Assembly: GCA_937995655.1 (NCBI GenBank) | Contig: CALKJI010000004.1 | Coordinates: 62,001 to 126,000, forward strand | Direction of reading: 5' to 3' | DNA length: 64,000 nucleotides | Source: an uncultured Pseudothermotoga sp. | GTDB taxonomy: Bacteria; Thermotogota; Thermotogae; Thermotogales; DSM-5069 | In this document: piece after piece, positions 55,655-60,628 of the stretch | Layout: each line of letters starts with the position of its first letter | Position numbering within the stretch: the stretch's first letter is position 1 | The notes under the pieces: generated by a model | What the model was told of the DNA's origin: nothing | Seen by the model: only the letters and a program-made list of their open reading frames with translations | Database searches by the model: none | Made by a program: the position numbers and the translations under genes

Positions 55655-55977
55655 CGAATTATTTGAGATCTTTTAAAAATTGTCTGTATTAGCTCTATCA
55701 TTCTTTTTGTCATCTTTACCGCCTTTCTGTGGCAAGGATTTGGTTTACACAATAATGACACAGATTGAGTTAGAAGGTTTCTAGATGAATGTAGTATCAC
55801 CGAAAAAATGATGACGATAAACAAAATTACATTCTAGATTACTCAAAAGATACTATAGCCAAGGTAACAAAGATTTGATTAGAATTCTTACAACGTTGGT
55901 GGTAGGAAGTTGAAAAATGATGGTTTGTATACAGAAATGGATTGTGAGTTAGAATAATCATGTGGAGGTGTATTAAG
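55655..55977. other. Gene-free interval between the glp and gal regions
   Basis: No supportable gene on either strand. AT-rich; no clear plus-strand promoter for the following operon could be identified by eye. Confidence 0.5.
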
Positions 55978-56661
55978 ATGAAAATTCGTTATCTTGGTCA
56001 TGCAGCGGTATTGATTCAACTCAAAGATAAGAACTTGATAATCGATCCCTTCATAACCGATAATCCCTGTTGTCCCGTGAAGTTGCAGGACCTACCAAGG
56101 ATTCACTACATACTGGTTACACATGGTCATTCTGATCATCTTGGTGATACGGTGAAGATAGCGAAGGCTGACGGAGCCACAGTGATAGCCAATTTTGAAT
56201 TATGCAGTTATGTGGCAAGGCATGGTATTGCCACTCACCCGATGCATATAGGCGGAAAGTATGTTTTTGAATTTGGAAGCGTCAAATTGACTCCTGCGTT
56301 ACATGGTTCTAGCTTGATCGAAAAGGAACTACCTGTATATGCAGGAAACCCCTGTGGGTTTTTGATCGAAGCAGAAGGTAAGAAGATCTACCATGCGGGC
56401 GACACAGGTTTGACAAAGGATATGGAATTGCTTCAAAAGGAAAAGATAGACATTGCCTTTCTACCAATAGGCGGTAATTTCGTGATGGATCTTTGGGACG
56501 CTGTCGAAGCAGTCAAAATGATTCAACCAAAGGTTGTTGTGCCCATACACTTCAATACTTGGGAGATAATAAAGGCAAATCCAGAGAAGTTCAAACAAGA
56601 AGTTGAGAAATTGCAAATGCAGTGTCACGTTATGAACCCCGGTGAAACGATCGAACTGTGA
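55978..56661 (+). CDS. UPF0173 metallo-beta-lactamase-fold hydrolase
   Basis: A 227-residue metal-dependent hydrolase of UPF0173. The motif is [16 protein letters not shown] (HxHxDH, about 47-62); further ligands are in [18 protein letters not shown] (Asp) and VVPIHFNTW (His), so the two-metal site is complete. The natural substrate of UPF0173 is unknown; relatives include UlaG, an L-ascorbate-6-phosphate lactonase, so a sugar lactone is a reasonable guess. Start ATG 55978 with GGAGGTG upstream. It heads the galactose operon by proximity. Confidence 0.85.
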
Positions 56662-56671
56662 GGCGGAAAAG

Positions 56672-57415
56672 ATGCGAATTCTTATTTTTGCATTTCTTTT
56701 TTTTGGGGCAGTCTGTATGGCGGGAATGATATATTATACACCAGTAGAGTTTGCCTTTCCGGGGGAACTTTATCAATCAATTGGTTCTAAGTCTGCCAAC
56801 TTCCAATATCTCATTCTGTCGAAATCAGATCAAATCATTTTGATCCTCAAGGGTTGGTTGTTCACGCCAGTACAGATCAGTGAAGAAAGATCTTTCAGGG
56901 TTGGTATTGTTGCAGAAAGTTTTGAGACACAAATAGATCTGCCAGCGAAGCAAAGTGGAATATATACATATATGGTTCAGCATCTTTTCATCCTGCCAAA
57001 GGATGTTTTAAAGATCACAGTGCAGGGGTATGAAATAAAACTTTCGGGCTTATCTTACAAAATCAGAACGGCGCATGGAGAAGATACAGTTTCTCTGTGC
57101 ACTATGAACAGCCAGAGAGTCACGGCCAACAGTTTCAAGATTGGCGAAAAGATTCTCATCATGATTTCTGCCGGCAGAAGGAACACAGGCGGATATGAAT
57201 TAGTTGTAGATTCTGTCAACATAGTCAATAAAACTATTGAGATAAAGGCTCATGTTGAATCTCCTTCAGCTTCAACACCCGTCATACAGGTCATAACCTA
57301 TCCCGCAGTAATAGTTGAGATCTGTGAACCTCTTGAACCTGGCATTTACAATGTGATCTGCACGCTTTCTGATCGTGGAGAAATCAGTTTATCAGCAGAA
57401 TTTGAAGTTTTCTGA
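56672..57415 (+). CDS. Secreted protein of unknown function
   Basis: I do not recognise this protein. The 247 residues begin with a signal peptide (RILIFAFLFFGAVCMAGM); the Cys at about 14 does not fit a lipobox well. The rest is predicted beta-rich, with two Ig-like halves: strands such as RVGIVAESFETQIDLP in the first, and IMISAGRRNTGGYELVVDSVNIVNKTIEIKAHVESP in the second. The latter part resembles a protease-complex (PrcB-like) domain, whose family pattern includes SSGYPTGGY followed by a beta strand and VxxP; here RRNTGGYELVVD fits loosely. The start is ATG 56672. The gene follows UPF0173 by 10 bases. Confidence 0.65.
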   Translation: MRILIFAFLFFGAVCMAGMIYYTPVEFAFPGELYQSIGSKSANFQYLILSKSDQIILILKGWLFTPVQISEERSFRVGIVAESFETQIDLPAKQSGIYTYMVQHLFILPKDVLKITVQGYEIKLSGLSYKIRTAHGEDTVSLCTMNSQRVTANSFKIGEKILIMISAGRRNTGGYELVVDSVNIVNKTIEIKAHVESPSASTPVIQVITYPAVIVEICEPLEPGIYNVICTLSDRGEISLSAEFEVF

Positions 57416-57489
57416 GTTTTGATTGAAACATGAAGTAAAGATTTTCGATAACTTCAAAGAGTATCTTCTAATTGAAGAGGCGATACTTT

Positions 57490-58602
57490 GTGCTAATTTA
57501 TGGTATGAACTTTCAAAATGGTGCGATCTTTCAAAAGAGAGATTCTTATGAACTTTTTTTGTCTATCTCTGACTTAGAATTTGGTAAACTTGTTCAAGCA
57601 AAGATTCGTGGCTCTGGTACCATAGAGATTTTCAATGCAGAACTGTGTAATGCTGAGATCTTCGCAGACTCATGTGTAGTGAAAGAGGGTTTATTAATAG
57701 GTTTTCTGAGTCATAGGAACGGAAAAATAACTATACACAAACAGAAGGATTCGTACACAGGATTGATCGATCTTTCGAAAAATTATGACGACTTTAAAGA
57801 TATTGATCCTCTTGTAATTTTACAAGGTTATGACAAGAGATTTCTTCTAGAAGAATATGCCAAACTTGTGGCTCATCAAAATAATGTGATTTCTGTTCCC
57901 AAACCCTATTCTGTTTTTATGATTAATCATGGCAAGGTAGAAGAATCCATAAGAAAGGCAAAAGAGTCAAATTTTGAAGTGCTACTTCTCACTCATCGAG
58001 AGAACTTAAATGAGTTTGTGAAGATATCCAAGACCAATCAGTTCATACCTGGGATTACCACAAAGTTCGATGAAAGGGAACTCAGAGAACTCCAGAAGAA
58101 AGGGTTCGAATTCTTTCAGATTACTTTCACGCATGACAAGAGAGAAGATGTATTTTTAGCAAGAAATATCTTGGAAGGTTCAACTCTTATCGCCAAAGGT
58201 ATTTCTCCGTTGACAGGCGTAGGCCTGGTTGATGGTTTGATTTTAGAAAAACCTTACAAAATGACAGAACTAATGAGGTTAGCTGTTTTGCAAAAATTTG
58301 TTCGGCTCTATATTGATTTGAACCAGGTCGATGAAAAAATGCTAGGTTTGTGCAATATTCTCAATTTTGGTATCATCTGTGATCGATCTTTTGGGAAAAT
58401 AGAGTATGCGAAATCTTACAAAGTAGAAAAAATCTCTGATCAAGAGTGTATAATTTCTTATCTCCATGAGAACAATATTTTAAGAGAACTGTTTTTTACA
58501 GCCCAAGTATTCCAAACAGAAAATAGATCAATTCCTTATTTGAAAAAAGAGATAAAAATTCGTGCAGACGGAAGGTCCTTTTATTTTTACAGTGAAGGGT
58601 GA
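57490..58602 (+). CDS. Shrunken GH36 alpha-galactosidase homologue, catalytic residues lost
   Basis: About 370 residues, against about 550 for T. maritima GalA (TM1192), which precedes galT and galK in the same way. By eye the N-terminal beta domain and ends align: GLLIGFLSHR, DIDPLVILQGYDKRFLLEEYAKLVA, FIPGIT, SPLTGVGLVDGL and the final DGRSFYFYSEG have counterparts in TM1192 (recalled sequence). The nucleophile segment KIDF is replaced by QITF (Asp to Thr, codon 58123-58125), and the acid/base region GPDTAP is replaced by LEKPYK near 58243-58260. About 180 residues of the barrel are missing, yet the frame is open. The start is GTG 57490 (TTG 57472 possible). It overlaps galT's reading frame end by a few bases or abuts it. 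Confidence 0.72.
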   Translation: MLIYGMNFQNGAIFQKRDSYELFLSISDLEFGKLVQAKIRGSGTIEIFNAELCNAEIFADSCVVKEGLLIGFLSHRNGKITIHKQKDSYTGLIDLSKNYDDFKDIDPLVILQGYDKRFLLEEYAKLVAHQNNVISVPKPYSVFMINHGKVEESIRKAKESNFEVLLLTHRENLNEFVKISKTNQFIPGITTKFDERELRELQKKGFEFFQITFTHDKREDVFLARNILEGSTLIAKGISPLTGVGLVDGLILEKPYKMTELMRLAVLQKFVRLYIDLNQVDEKMLGLCNILNFGIICDRSFGKIEYAKSYKVEKISDQECIISYLHENNILRELFFTAQVFQTENRSIPYLKKEIKIRADGRSFYFYSEG

Positions 58603-58607
58603 GGAAT

Positions 58608-59567
58608 TTGCTTGAGCTCAGGTATAATCCCTTGACCGATGAGTGGATCATAGTCTCTGCAGAGACACAAAAAAGGCCTGTACAACCAGCTCAACAGAGT
58701 TGTCCGATTTGTGTTGGCGGTCTTGAACTTCCTGAAGATTACGATCTTGTAACCTTCGAAAACAGGTTCCCTGCGCTGAAAAAGGATCCGCCACAGATCA
58801 CTCAAGATGATTTTTATAAGAAGGATAGATCCTTTGGTGTTTGCGAGGTGGTAGTTTACACAAAGGATCACAACACAGCCTTACCAGGAATGCCCTTGAG
58901 GCAGATCGAAAAACTAGTAGAGATGTGGATAGATAGAACCATTGAACTTTCGAAACATGATTTTGTTAAATACGTCTTCATCTTTGAAAACAGGGGTAAA
59001 GAGGTCGGTGCAAGCCTTCCACATCCTCACGGACAAATCTATGCCTTTCCCTTTTTACCAAAAAGAATTCAAGTCAAACTAGAGGCAATGAAGAAATGGT
59101 ACAAAGAGAGGAAAAACTGTGCCATATGCCAAATTGTCGATAATGAACTTGAGAAAAGACAAAGAATCGTTCATGAGACGGATTCTTTTGTGGCGCTGGT
59201 ACCTTTTTATGCGAGATTTCCCTTCGAAATCCATATCTATCCTAAACGCCATATCAGTACAGTTTATGAATTTTCTCACCAAGAACGGAAAGATTTTGCA
59301 AGGATAATAAAAGTTGTTACCTTAAAGTATGATAAACTCTTTGATCAAGAGTTTCCATATATGATGATGTTTTTCCAAAAGCCTTTCAATTGTCCAGAAG
59401 AGAGCGATTTGTTCCATTTCCATGTTGAATTTAATCCACCAAAAAGAGATAAGGACAAGATCAAGTGGATGGCAAGTGTCGAAACCGGCACATGGGCTTT
59501 TATAAATCCAGTGGTGCCTGAGCAAGCTGCGGAGATGTTAAGAAATACGAAAGTGGAGGGGATCTAA
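58608..59567 (+). CDS. galT: Galactose-1-phosphate uridylyltransferase
   Basis: Exchanges UMP between UDP-glucose and galactose 1-phosphate in the Leloir pathway. The HIT-type active site is intact: ASLPHPHGQIYAFPF, where the second His is the nucleophile. Two Cys pairs for structural zinc are seen, SCPICVGG near the start and NCAICQIV in the middle. About 319 residues, the usual size. Start: TTG 58608 follows GGGTGAGG; GTG 58599 in frame is too close to the ribosome site. The stop overlaps the galK start by one base. Confidence 0.95.
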   Translation: MLELRYNPLTDEWIIVSAETQKRPVQPAQQSCPICVGGLELPEDYDLVTFENRFPALKKDPPQITQDDFYKKDRSFGVCEVVVYTKDHNTALPGMPLRQIEKLVEMWIDRTIELSKHDFVKYVFIFENRGKEVGASLPHPHGQIYAFPFLPKRIQVKLEAMKKWYKERKNCAICQIVDNELEKRQRIVHETDSFVALVPFYARFPFEIHIYPKRHISTVYEFSHQERKDFARIIKVVTLKYDKLFDQEFPYMMMFFQKPFNCPEESDLFHFHVEFNPPKRDKDKIKWMASVETGTWAFINPVVPEQAAEMLRNTKVEGI

Positions 59568-60628
59568 TGCCAAAGTTCAAAGCTCCCGGTAGGGTGAACA
59601 TCATTGGAGAGCACACAGATTACAACGATGGTTTTGTTCTACCTTTTGCAATTGACAGATATGTTGAAGTCGATATCAAGCCGAGCAATAGATATGTATT
59701 CACGTCACAAGTGATGAATGAGACAGTTTCAGTTAAAAAGTTTCAAAAACTTGGTAAATGGACAGATTATATCATGGGAGTGATCTGGGTTATTGAACAA
59801 CGAGGATACAAGACAGAGCCAGTTGAAGTTATCGTCTCTTCAAACCTTCCTATCGGAGCTGGTCTTTCAAGTTCTGCTGCCTTAGAAATAGCAACGGCTT
59901 ATGGTATTAATGAGATCTTCAATCTGAAGATGGATGAGATGCAACTTGTTGAGGTAGGAGTGAAGGCAGAAAGAGAGTTTGTTGGTGTTAGGTGTGGAGT
60001 GATGGATCAGTTCACGGCAGTTTTTGCAAAGAAGGATTACGCGATCTTTCTTGATACTTCAAATCTAAAATATGAGTATGTGCCATTGAATTTGGCTGAT
60101 CTTGAGTTTGCTTTGATAGATTCAAATACAAAACATGAATTGTCTTCATCTGAATACAACAAAAGACGAGAAGAGTGTGAGAAAGTTTTGAAGATGCTGA
60201 ACAAGAAATCTTTTCGAGAAATAAATTACGATGATCTTTCAATACTTGATCCGCTGTTGAGAAAAAGGGCACGGCACGTCCTCGATGAAAATAAACGTGT
60301 TTTGCTCGCGGTGAGGGCTCTGAAAAACTCAGAGAGTTTCTTGCTTGGAAATATCTTATACGAATCGCATGTGAGCCTGAGAGATCTTTACGAAGTTTCC
60401 TGTGATGAGACAGACTTCATAGTTGGTTATGTCAAGGGAGAGATTGGAATACTTGGAGCCAGGATGGTTGGAGGCGGTTTTGGTGGCAGTGTCCTTGTAC
60501 TGGCCAGAGCAGGTCATATCGATAAAGTCTTTATGGAATTGGAAAAGAGCTACTTCAAGATGTTTGGTAAGAAGCCATCATTGATCAAAATAAAAAGCAG
60601 TGATGGAGCGAACATGGTGATGGAATGA
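59567..60628 (+). CDS. galK: Galactokinase
   Basis: A GHMP kinase making galactose 1-phosphate. The 353 residues have the galactokinase signature GRVNIIGEHTDYNDGFVLP (about 8-26), the ATP loop PIGAGLSSSAALE (about 95-107), and motif 3, GARMVGGGFGGSVLVLA near residue 303. GVRCGVMDQFTAVFAK includes the catalytic Asp. It shares its start with the galT stop and its end overlaps the GntR gene by 4 bases. Together with galT it would channel galactose from galactan or raffinose-type sugars to glycolysis; galE is not in the window. Confidence 0.96.
   Translation: MPKFKAPGRVNIIGEHTDYNDGFVLPFAIDRYVEVDIKPSNRYVFTSQVMNETVSVKKFQKLGKWTDYIMGVIWVIEQRGYKTEPVEVIVSSNLPIGAGLSSSAALEIATAYGINEIFNLKMDEMQLVEVGVKAEREFVGVRCGVMDQFTAVFAKKDYAIFLDTSNLKYEYVPLNLADLEFALIDSNTKHELSSSEYNKRREECEKVLKMLNKKSFREINYDDLSILDPLLRKRARHVLDENKRVLLAVRALKNSESFLLGNILYESHVSLRDLYEVSCDETDFIVGYVKGEIGILGARMVGGGFGGSVLVLARAGHIDKVFMELEKSYFKMFGKKPSLIKIKSSDGANMVME

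Follow-up and report, generated by a model that had tools for sequence, protein, structure and literature searches.

Results

Organisation of the locus

The window, which is the whole stretch of 64,000 nucleotides that was analysed, contains a galactose operon with the order SHORT, galT, galK and a gene for a GntR regulator, where SHORT denotes the gene under study and its product. The frame of SHORT is uninterrupted over 370 codons, from the GTG at 57490 to the TGA ending at 58602, and its 3' end overlaps the annotated GTG of galT (58599) by 4 nt. The open frame, the ribosome site and the tight linkage described in an earlier note on this DNA are all present. The features of the locus are the following.

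57474..57480, + strand: Shine-Dalgarno-like gaagagg, 9 nt 5' of the SHORT GTG start (sequence)
57490..58602, + strand: SHORT, a catalytically dead derivative of the GH36 α-galactosidase GalA, 370 aa (sequence, profile and structure comparisons)
57490..57825, + strand: N-terminal β-sandwich domain of SHORT, reduced, the W65-bearing NNWQSWGP segment being absent (AlphaFold model, alignment)
57910..58380, + strand: stripped (β/α)8 barrel of SHORT, catalytic loops deleted (AlphaFold model, alignment)
Residues 141-145, 164-167, 186-192, 208-212, 232-236, 249-252, 273-276 and 294-297: the eight barrel strands of SHORT (AlphaFold model)
58117..58128, + strand: QITF of SHORT where TmGalA has KIDF, with Thr at the nucleophile Asp327 (alignment)
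58414..58500, + strand: C-terminal β strands of SHORT, counterpart of the GalA C-terminal domain (AlphaFold model)
58504..58533, + strand: linker of SHORT, residues 339-348, pLDDT below 50 (AlphaFold model)
58540..58599, + strand: conserved tail of SHORT, residues 351-370 (alignments, tail profile)
58567-58590, + strand: tail core DGRSFYFY of SHORT
58599..59567, + strand: galT, galactose-1-phosphate uridylyltransferase, alternative start TTG 58608 (putative partner of the tail, from co-occurrence)
59567..60628, + strand: galK, galactokinase

The source genome, an assembly of 14 contigs and 2.1 Mb with 99.9% completeness, was searched throughout for a second GalA, and none was found besides SHORT. 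The region 5' of SHORT (window positions 55960-57415) encodes a protein of metallo-beta-lactamase fold and a fast-evolving protein with a PrcB_C domain; in f1, the family to which the source genome belongs, the gene for the latter is present in 10 of 11 genomes (G004 is without it), and the lactamase-fold gene is found in most of them.

SHORT derives from an α-galactosidase and has lost the active site

SHORT is a derivative of a TmGalA-type GH36 α-galactosidase whose active site has been wholly lost. In a phmmer search against the PDB, TmGalA was the sole match above noise (1zy9, E=1.6e-10), and together with galT and galK lying directly 3' this bears out the proposal of the earlier note that the galactose operon holds a probable pseudoenzyme descended from GH36. 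In the profile check suggested there, the Pfam GalA_N profile (PF22676) matches with 19 bits, under its curated cut-off of 27, and the Melibiase profile PF02065 yielded no match to SHORT.

The catalytic residues of TmGalA are Asp327, the nucleophile, and Asp387, the acid/base (PMC6089974). Both are lost in SHORT, as had been claimed, the first through the change from KIDF to QITF and the second through deletion of the GPDTAP segment. When nine active-site positions of TmGalA were scored in the alignment (W65, W190, D220, D221, W257, K325, D327, R383 and D387), SHORT retained none of them, and in the other 16 short copies described below at most one or two scattered active-site residues are left. 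The strong reduction in length is also real (370 vs 552 aa for TmGalA).

The AlphaFold model of SHORT, built from five sequences (pLDDT 82.5, pTM 0.77), shows a β-sandwich, eight β/α units, C-terminal strands, a low-confidence linker and two strands formed by the tail; the three-domain architecture of GH36 (β-sandwich, (β/α)8 barrel and C-terminal β domain) is thus kept in the predicted model, in a stripped form. With this model as the Foldseek query the TmGalA structures rank first (E ~1e-23, query TM 0.68). The model of the full-length GalA of L106, computed with 4 rows, reached a pLDDT of 43 and was left out of the comparison.

The position of SHORT in the galactose operon and the GntR regulator following galK, in the window and in the closest relatives, could speak for a dead barrel that senses galactose or an oligosaccharide and signals, comparable to the sensor derived from a galactokinase. 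Sugar sensing or binding had been suggested in the earlier note, and we regard it as quite unlikely: no residue contacting galactose in TmGalA is kept, the ligand-facing loops have been removed by deletions, and the body of the protein is poorly conserved, with 28% mean pairwise identity within f1.

Dead copies are old, selected and probably of more than one origin

All 11 genomes of f1, a family that takes in a Pseudothermotoga sp., carry a short dead copy of 344-385 aa directly 5' of galT. The frames of these copies are intact, and their products are 16-44% identical to the protein of the window. Six genomes of a second family, f3, likewise have a short copy (307-435 aa) directly 5' of galT, which makes 17 dead open copies in two families; elsewhere in the Thermotogales a full-length GalA occupies this spot. 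A scan of the genome contigs with A1 gave four loci only, one from a Pseudothermotoga sp. In close pairs with unsaturated dS the dN/dS of SHORT is 0.27, 0.18 and 0.29, as compared with 0.04-0.07 for galT in the same pairs. SHORT is an ancient gene under purifying selection. These results dispose of the quite recent decay that had been offered as an alternative explanation, and the frameshifts in relatives that would have indicated it are absent from all 11 f1 frames. They also make it very improbable that SHORT is a pseudogene in decay whose frame is open by chance or is held open by nothing more than translational coupling to galT: the overlap with galT and the fast evolution of the body, whose dN/dS is some 3-6 times the galT value in the same pairs, are in line with such a decay, but the dN/dS values lie well under 1, all 17 copies in the two families are open and their C-terminal tail is invariant at the amino-acid level. 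What was proposed as a conserved, non-enzymatic GalA derivative is therefore found as such in f1 and f3, selected and without the catalytic motifs of its family, as is characteristic of pseudoenzymes.

A single clade of SHORT loci is rejected by the galT+galK tree (AU p=0.0135), although not by the galT tree alone (p=0.238). Catalysis has therefore been lost at the locus adjoining galT at least twice, unless gene replacement restored it. Second GalA genes occur in 12 of the 17 genomes with SHORT vs none of those with a full-length GalA linked to galT (Fisher 1e-7), and each of these 12 relocated, full-length enzymes has the KIDF and GPDT motifs. In the f3 genomes concerned (L041-L044, L053, L072) the SHORT-galT-galK operons cluster with f1/f2 in the galT+galK tree and the second GalA clusters with native f3 enzymes, a pattern that suggests horizontal transfer of the operon.

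Two further genes depart from the catalytic form. The full-length GalA linked to galT in G050 (L081 2484-4253, - strand) has lost W65, W190, R383 and the acid/base Asp387 and bears the tail, so that it is perhaps a further catalytic loss at an earlier stage. An unlinked GalA of 450 aa in G026 (L045 5531-6883, + strand), which lacks galT and has no close match to galK, has lost several active-site residues including the acid/base; this GalA is apparently a real case of decay.

A conserved C-terminal tail

The earlier note overlooked the conserved part of the protein, which is a C-terminal tail whose presence tracks GalT. The last 20 residues of SHORT follow the pattern K...xDGRxFx[FY]Y, and the mean pairwise identity within f1 is 80% for the core DGRxFxFY, vs the low value of the body given above. 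Within the first 61 genomes the tail terminates all 48 GalA or SHORT genes lying directly 5' of galT, counting also weaker forms, for instance the DMRLFHYY of G016. It is absent from the 12 second GalAs of the SHORT genomes and from the GalAs of G026 and G053, and these tail-less proteins are spread over three separate clades. The dissociation thus goes both ways, catalysis being lost with the tail kept and the tail being lost with catalysis kept.

In two f7 genomes without GalA (G048 and G054) the tail opens a small ORF that has its own Shine-Dalgarno sequence and lies directly 5' of galT. These ORFs are probably unannotated small proteins:

L097 1176-1343, + strand: stand-alone tail mini-ORF of G054, beginning MRLIKVKVVKEDGRYVYYYEVEKG
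L100 508-687, - strand: stand-alone tail mini-ORF of G048, beginning MRLKKVKVIKKDGRFVYYYYEEEKG

The codons for Asp, Gly, Arg, Phe and Tyr of the tail differ synonymously between genomes, and selection therefore acts on the peptide. In the open literature, which was covered in part, no published account of the tail or of a partner of GalT was found.

The tail co-occurs with GalT

A tail profile of 28 rows was run on all 103 Thermotogota genomes of the class, and 66 of them match at E<=1e-3; five further tails (G016, G029, G065, G068 and G092) were confirmed at the GalA end by position or sequence. The tail is present in 71 of the 72 genomes with a clade-A GalT, and no significant match occurs in the 31 genomes without one, many of which have no GalA to bear it. 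The association is strong (Fisher 1.6e-25, uncorrected for phylogeny), to be read in the light of shared ancestry among the genomes, of about half a dozen independent events behind the link and of the fragmentation of some assemblies. The lone exception, G059 (82% complete), has a clade-A galT at which the contig ends, with no tail seen. The set that bears on the question is accordingly reduced to nine readable GalA genes in genomes lacking galT, and all nine are without the tail. Clade-B GalT forms a separate branch and is accompanied by neither GalA nor tail.

Family f11, in which GalA is unlinked to galT, provides a test of action in trans. The tail is present in all seven f11 genomes with galT, and in all seven readable genomes without galT the GalA ends just short of it, through two independent losses. 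As galK is present in each of these seven galT-less genomes, the link of the tail is with GalT and not with GalK; the same pattern is seen in G053 (79% complete). A role of the tail as a partner of GalK was rejected, galK being still present in galT-less genomes with a tail-less GalA. In G073, G074 and G077-G083, galK and mostly also GalA are present and clade-A galT is absent; most of them encode a distant GalT-like paralogue.

The tail probably acts as a protein, in trans

Lying 5' of galT, the tail stretch might control galT translation, either through the nascent peptide (a leader or arrest peptide) or as an RNA element. In most genomes 22-31 nt separate the tail codons from the start region of galT, the frames differing, and the mini-ORFs of f7 stand directly 5' of galT, as such a control would have it. 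Leader and arrest peptides act in cis, on the gene that follows them, yet the seven f11 genomes keep the tail on a GalA unlinked to galT, on a different contig or, in G069, about 430 kb away. The distance between tail and galT also rises to 44-68 nt in part of f3, and the tail varies synonymously. An RNA element was rejected on the synonymous variation and the unlinked tails, the latter having already largely refuted the cis-control reading as a whole, which we consider unlikely: since the tail can apparently serve GalT from a distant gene, a leader peptide or an RNA element is disfavoured.

The finding that every catalytic GalA adjoining galT bears the tail could also be explained by a metabolic tether, the tail keeping GalA beside GalT for the channelling of galactose. 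We give this little credence, as 17 genomes with a dead GalA and the GalA-less f7 genomes keep the tail, and catalytic second copies of GalA do without it.

Discussion

The tail persists without catalysis or even without GalA, and vanishes without GalT though GalA and GalK stay; we take it, therefore, that the tail serves GalT. We propose that SHORT is probably a pseudo-α-galactosidase retained because its C-terminal tail serves GalT, and we infer from the co-occurrence both a binding of the tail to GalT and an effect on it. The ancestral GalA of Thermotogota would have been an α-galactosidase with an extra C-terminal peptide working with GalT, as a protein and in trans. In several lineages the GalA linked to galT would have lost catalysis with the tail remaining, usually where a second, tail-less GalA could take over hydrolysis, and the source genome has the tail-bearing dead copy alone. 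The most likely mechanism is a docking of the tail onto GalT that helps the enzyme to fold, to stay stable or to be active, the stripped GalA body being presumably the carrier of the tail. The body, on which some constraint is also apparent, may have a function of its own besides. Replacement by the tail of the C-terminal strand or the N-terminal arm of the E. coli/human GalT was considered and rejected, as tail-less GalTs (clade B and the archaeal-type 6k5z) lack both too.

Against the proposal that the tail helps GalT we count the clade-B GalTs of Thermotogota, which have no tail, the partial constraint on the body and the exception of G059. E. coli GalT also functions without any such peptide.

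In a broader form, for which we see roughly even chances on the sequence comparisons, the GalT of Thermotogota would have a portable accessory peptide of ~20 aa, encoded in trans, as an obligate micro-subunit. Its carrier would be the C-terminus of an unrelated glycosidase or a dead remnant of a glycosidase, or it would stand alone as a mini-ORF; it would preserve the remnants of the proteins on which it rides and be lost along with GalT. The proposed service to GalT would explain the persistence of dead glycosidases beside galT in two families, and GalT, a textbook enzyme of the Leloir pathway whose human counterpart GALT is disease-linked, is predicted to have a new partner. Annotation by homology of the body can overlook the selected part of a protein.

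Among known systems, TmGalA (TM1192; PDB 1zy9, 5m0x; GH36) shares with SHORT the operon position, the fold and the C-terminal tail, but it is catalytic, with 552 aa and 9/9 active-site residues against 370 aa and 0/9. The numbers of residues resolved in 1zy9 and 5m0x (526 of 564 and 533 of 575) are compatible with disorder of the TmGalA tail, residues 531-552. Yeast Gal3p is a pseudo-galactokinase sensor with an intact ligand site; sensors of this type are, like SHORT, dead relatives of an enzyme of the galactose pathway, but Gal3p retains the ligand site and SHORT does not. The AdoMetDC and DHS prozymes of trypanosomatids are paralogues of the enzymes that they activate (PMC5201418, PMC3663545), and as with SHORT, for which the supporting role is the one proposed here, a dead protein is maintained beside an active enzyme. 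Prozymes derive from their client enzyme, whereas SHORT, which is associated with GalT, is not a paralogue of it but derives from GalA, its putative client being the unrelated GalT.
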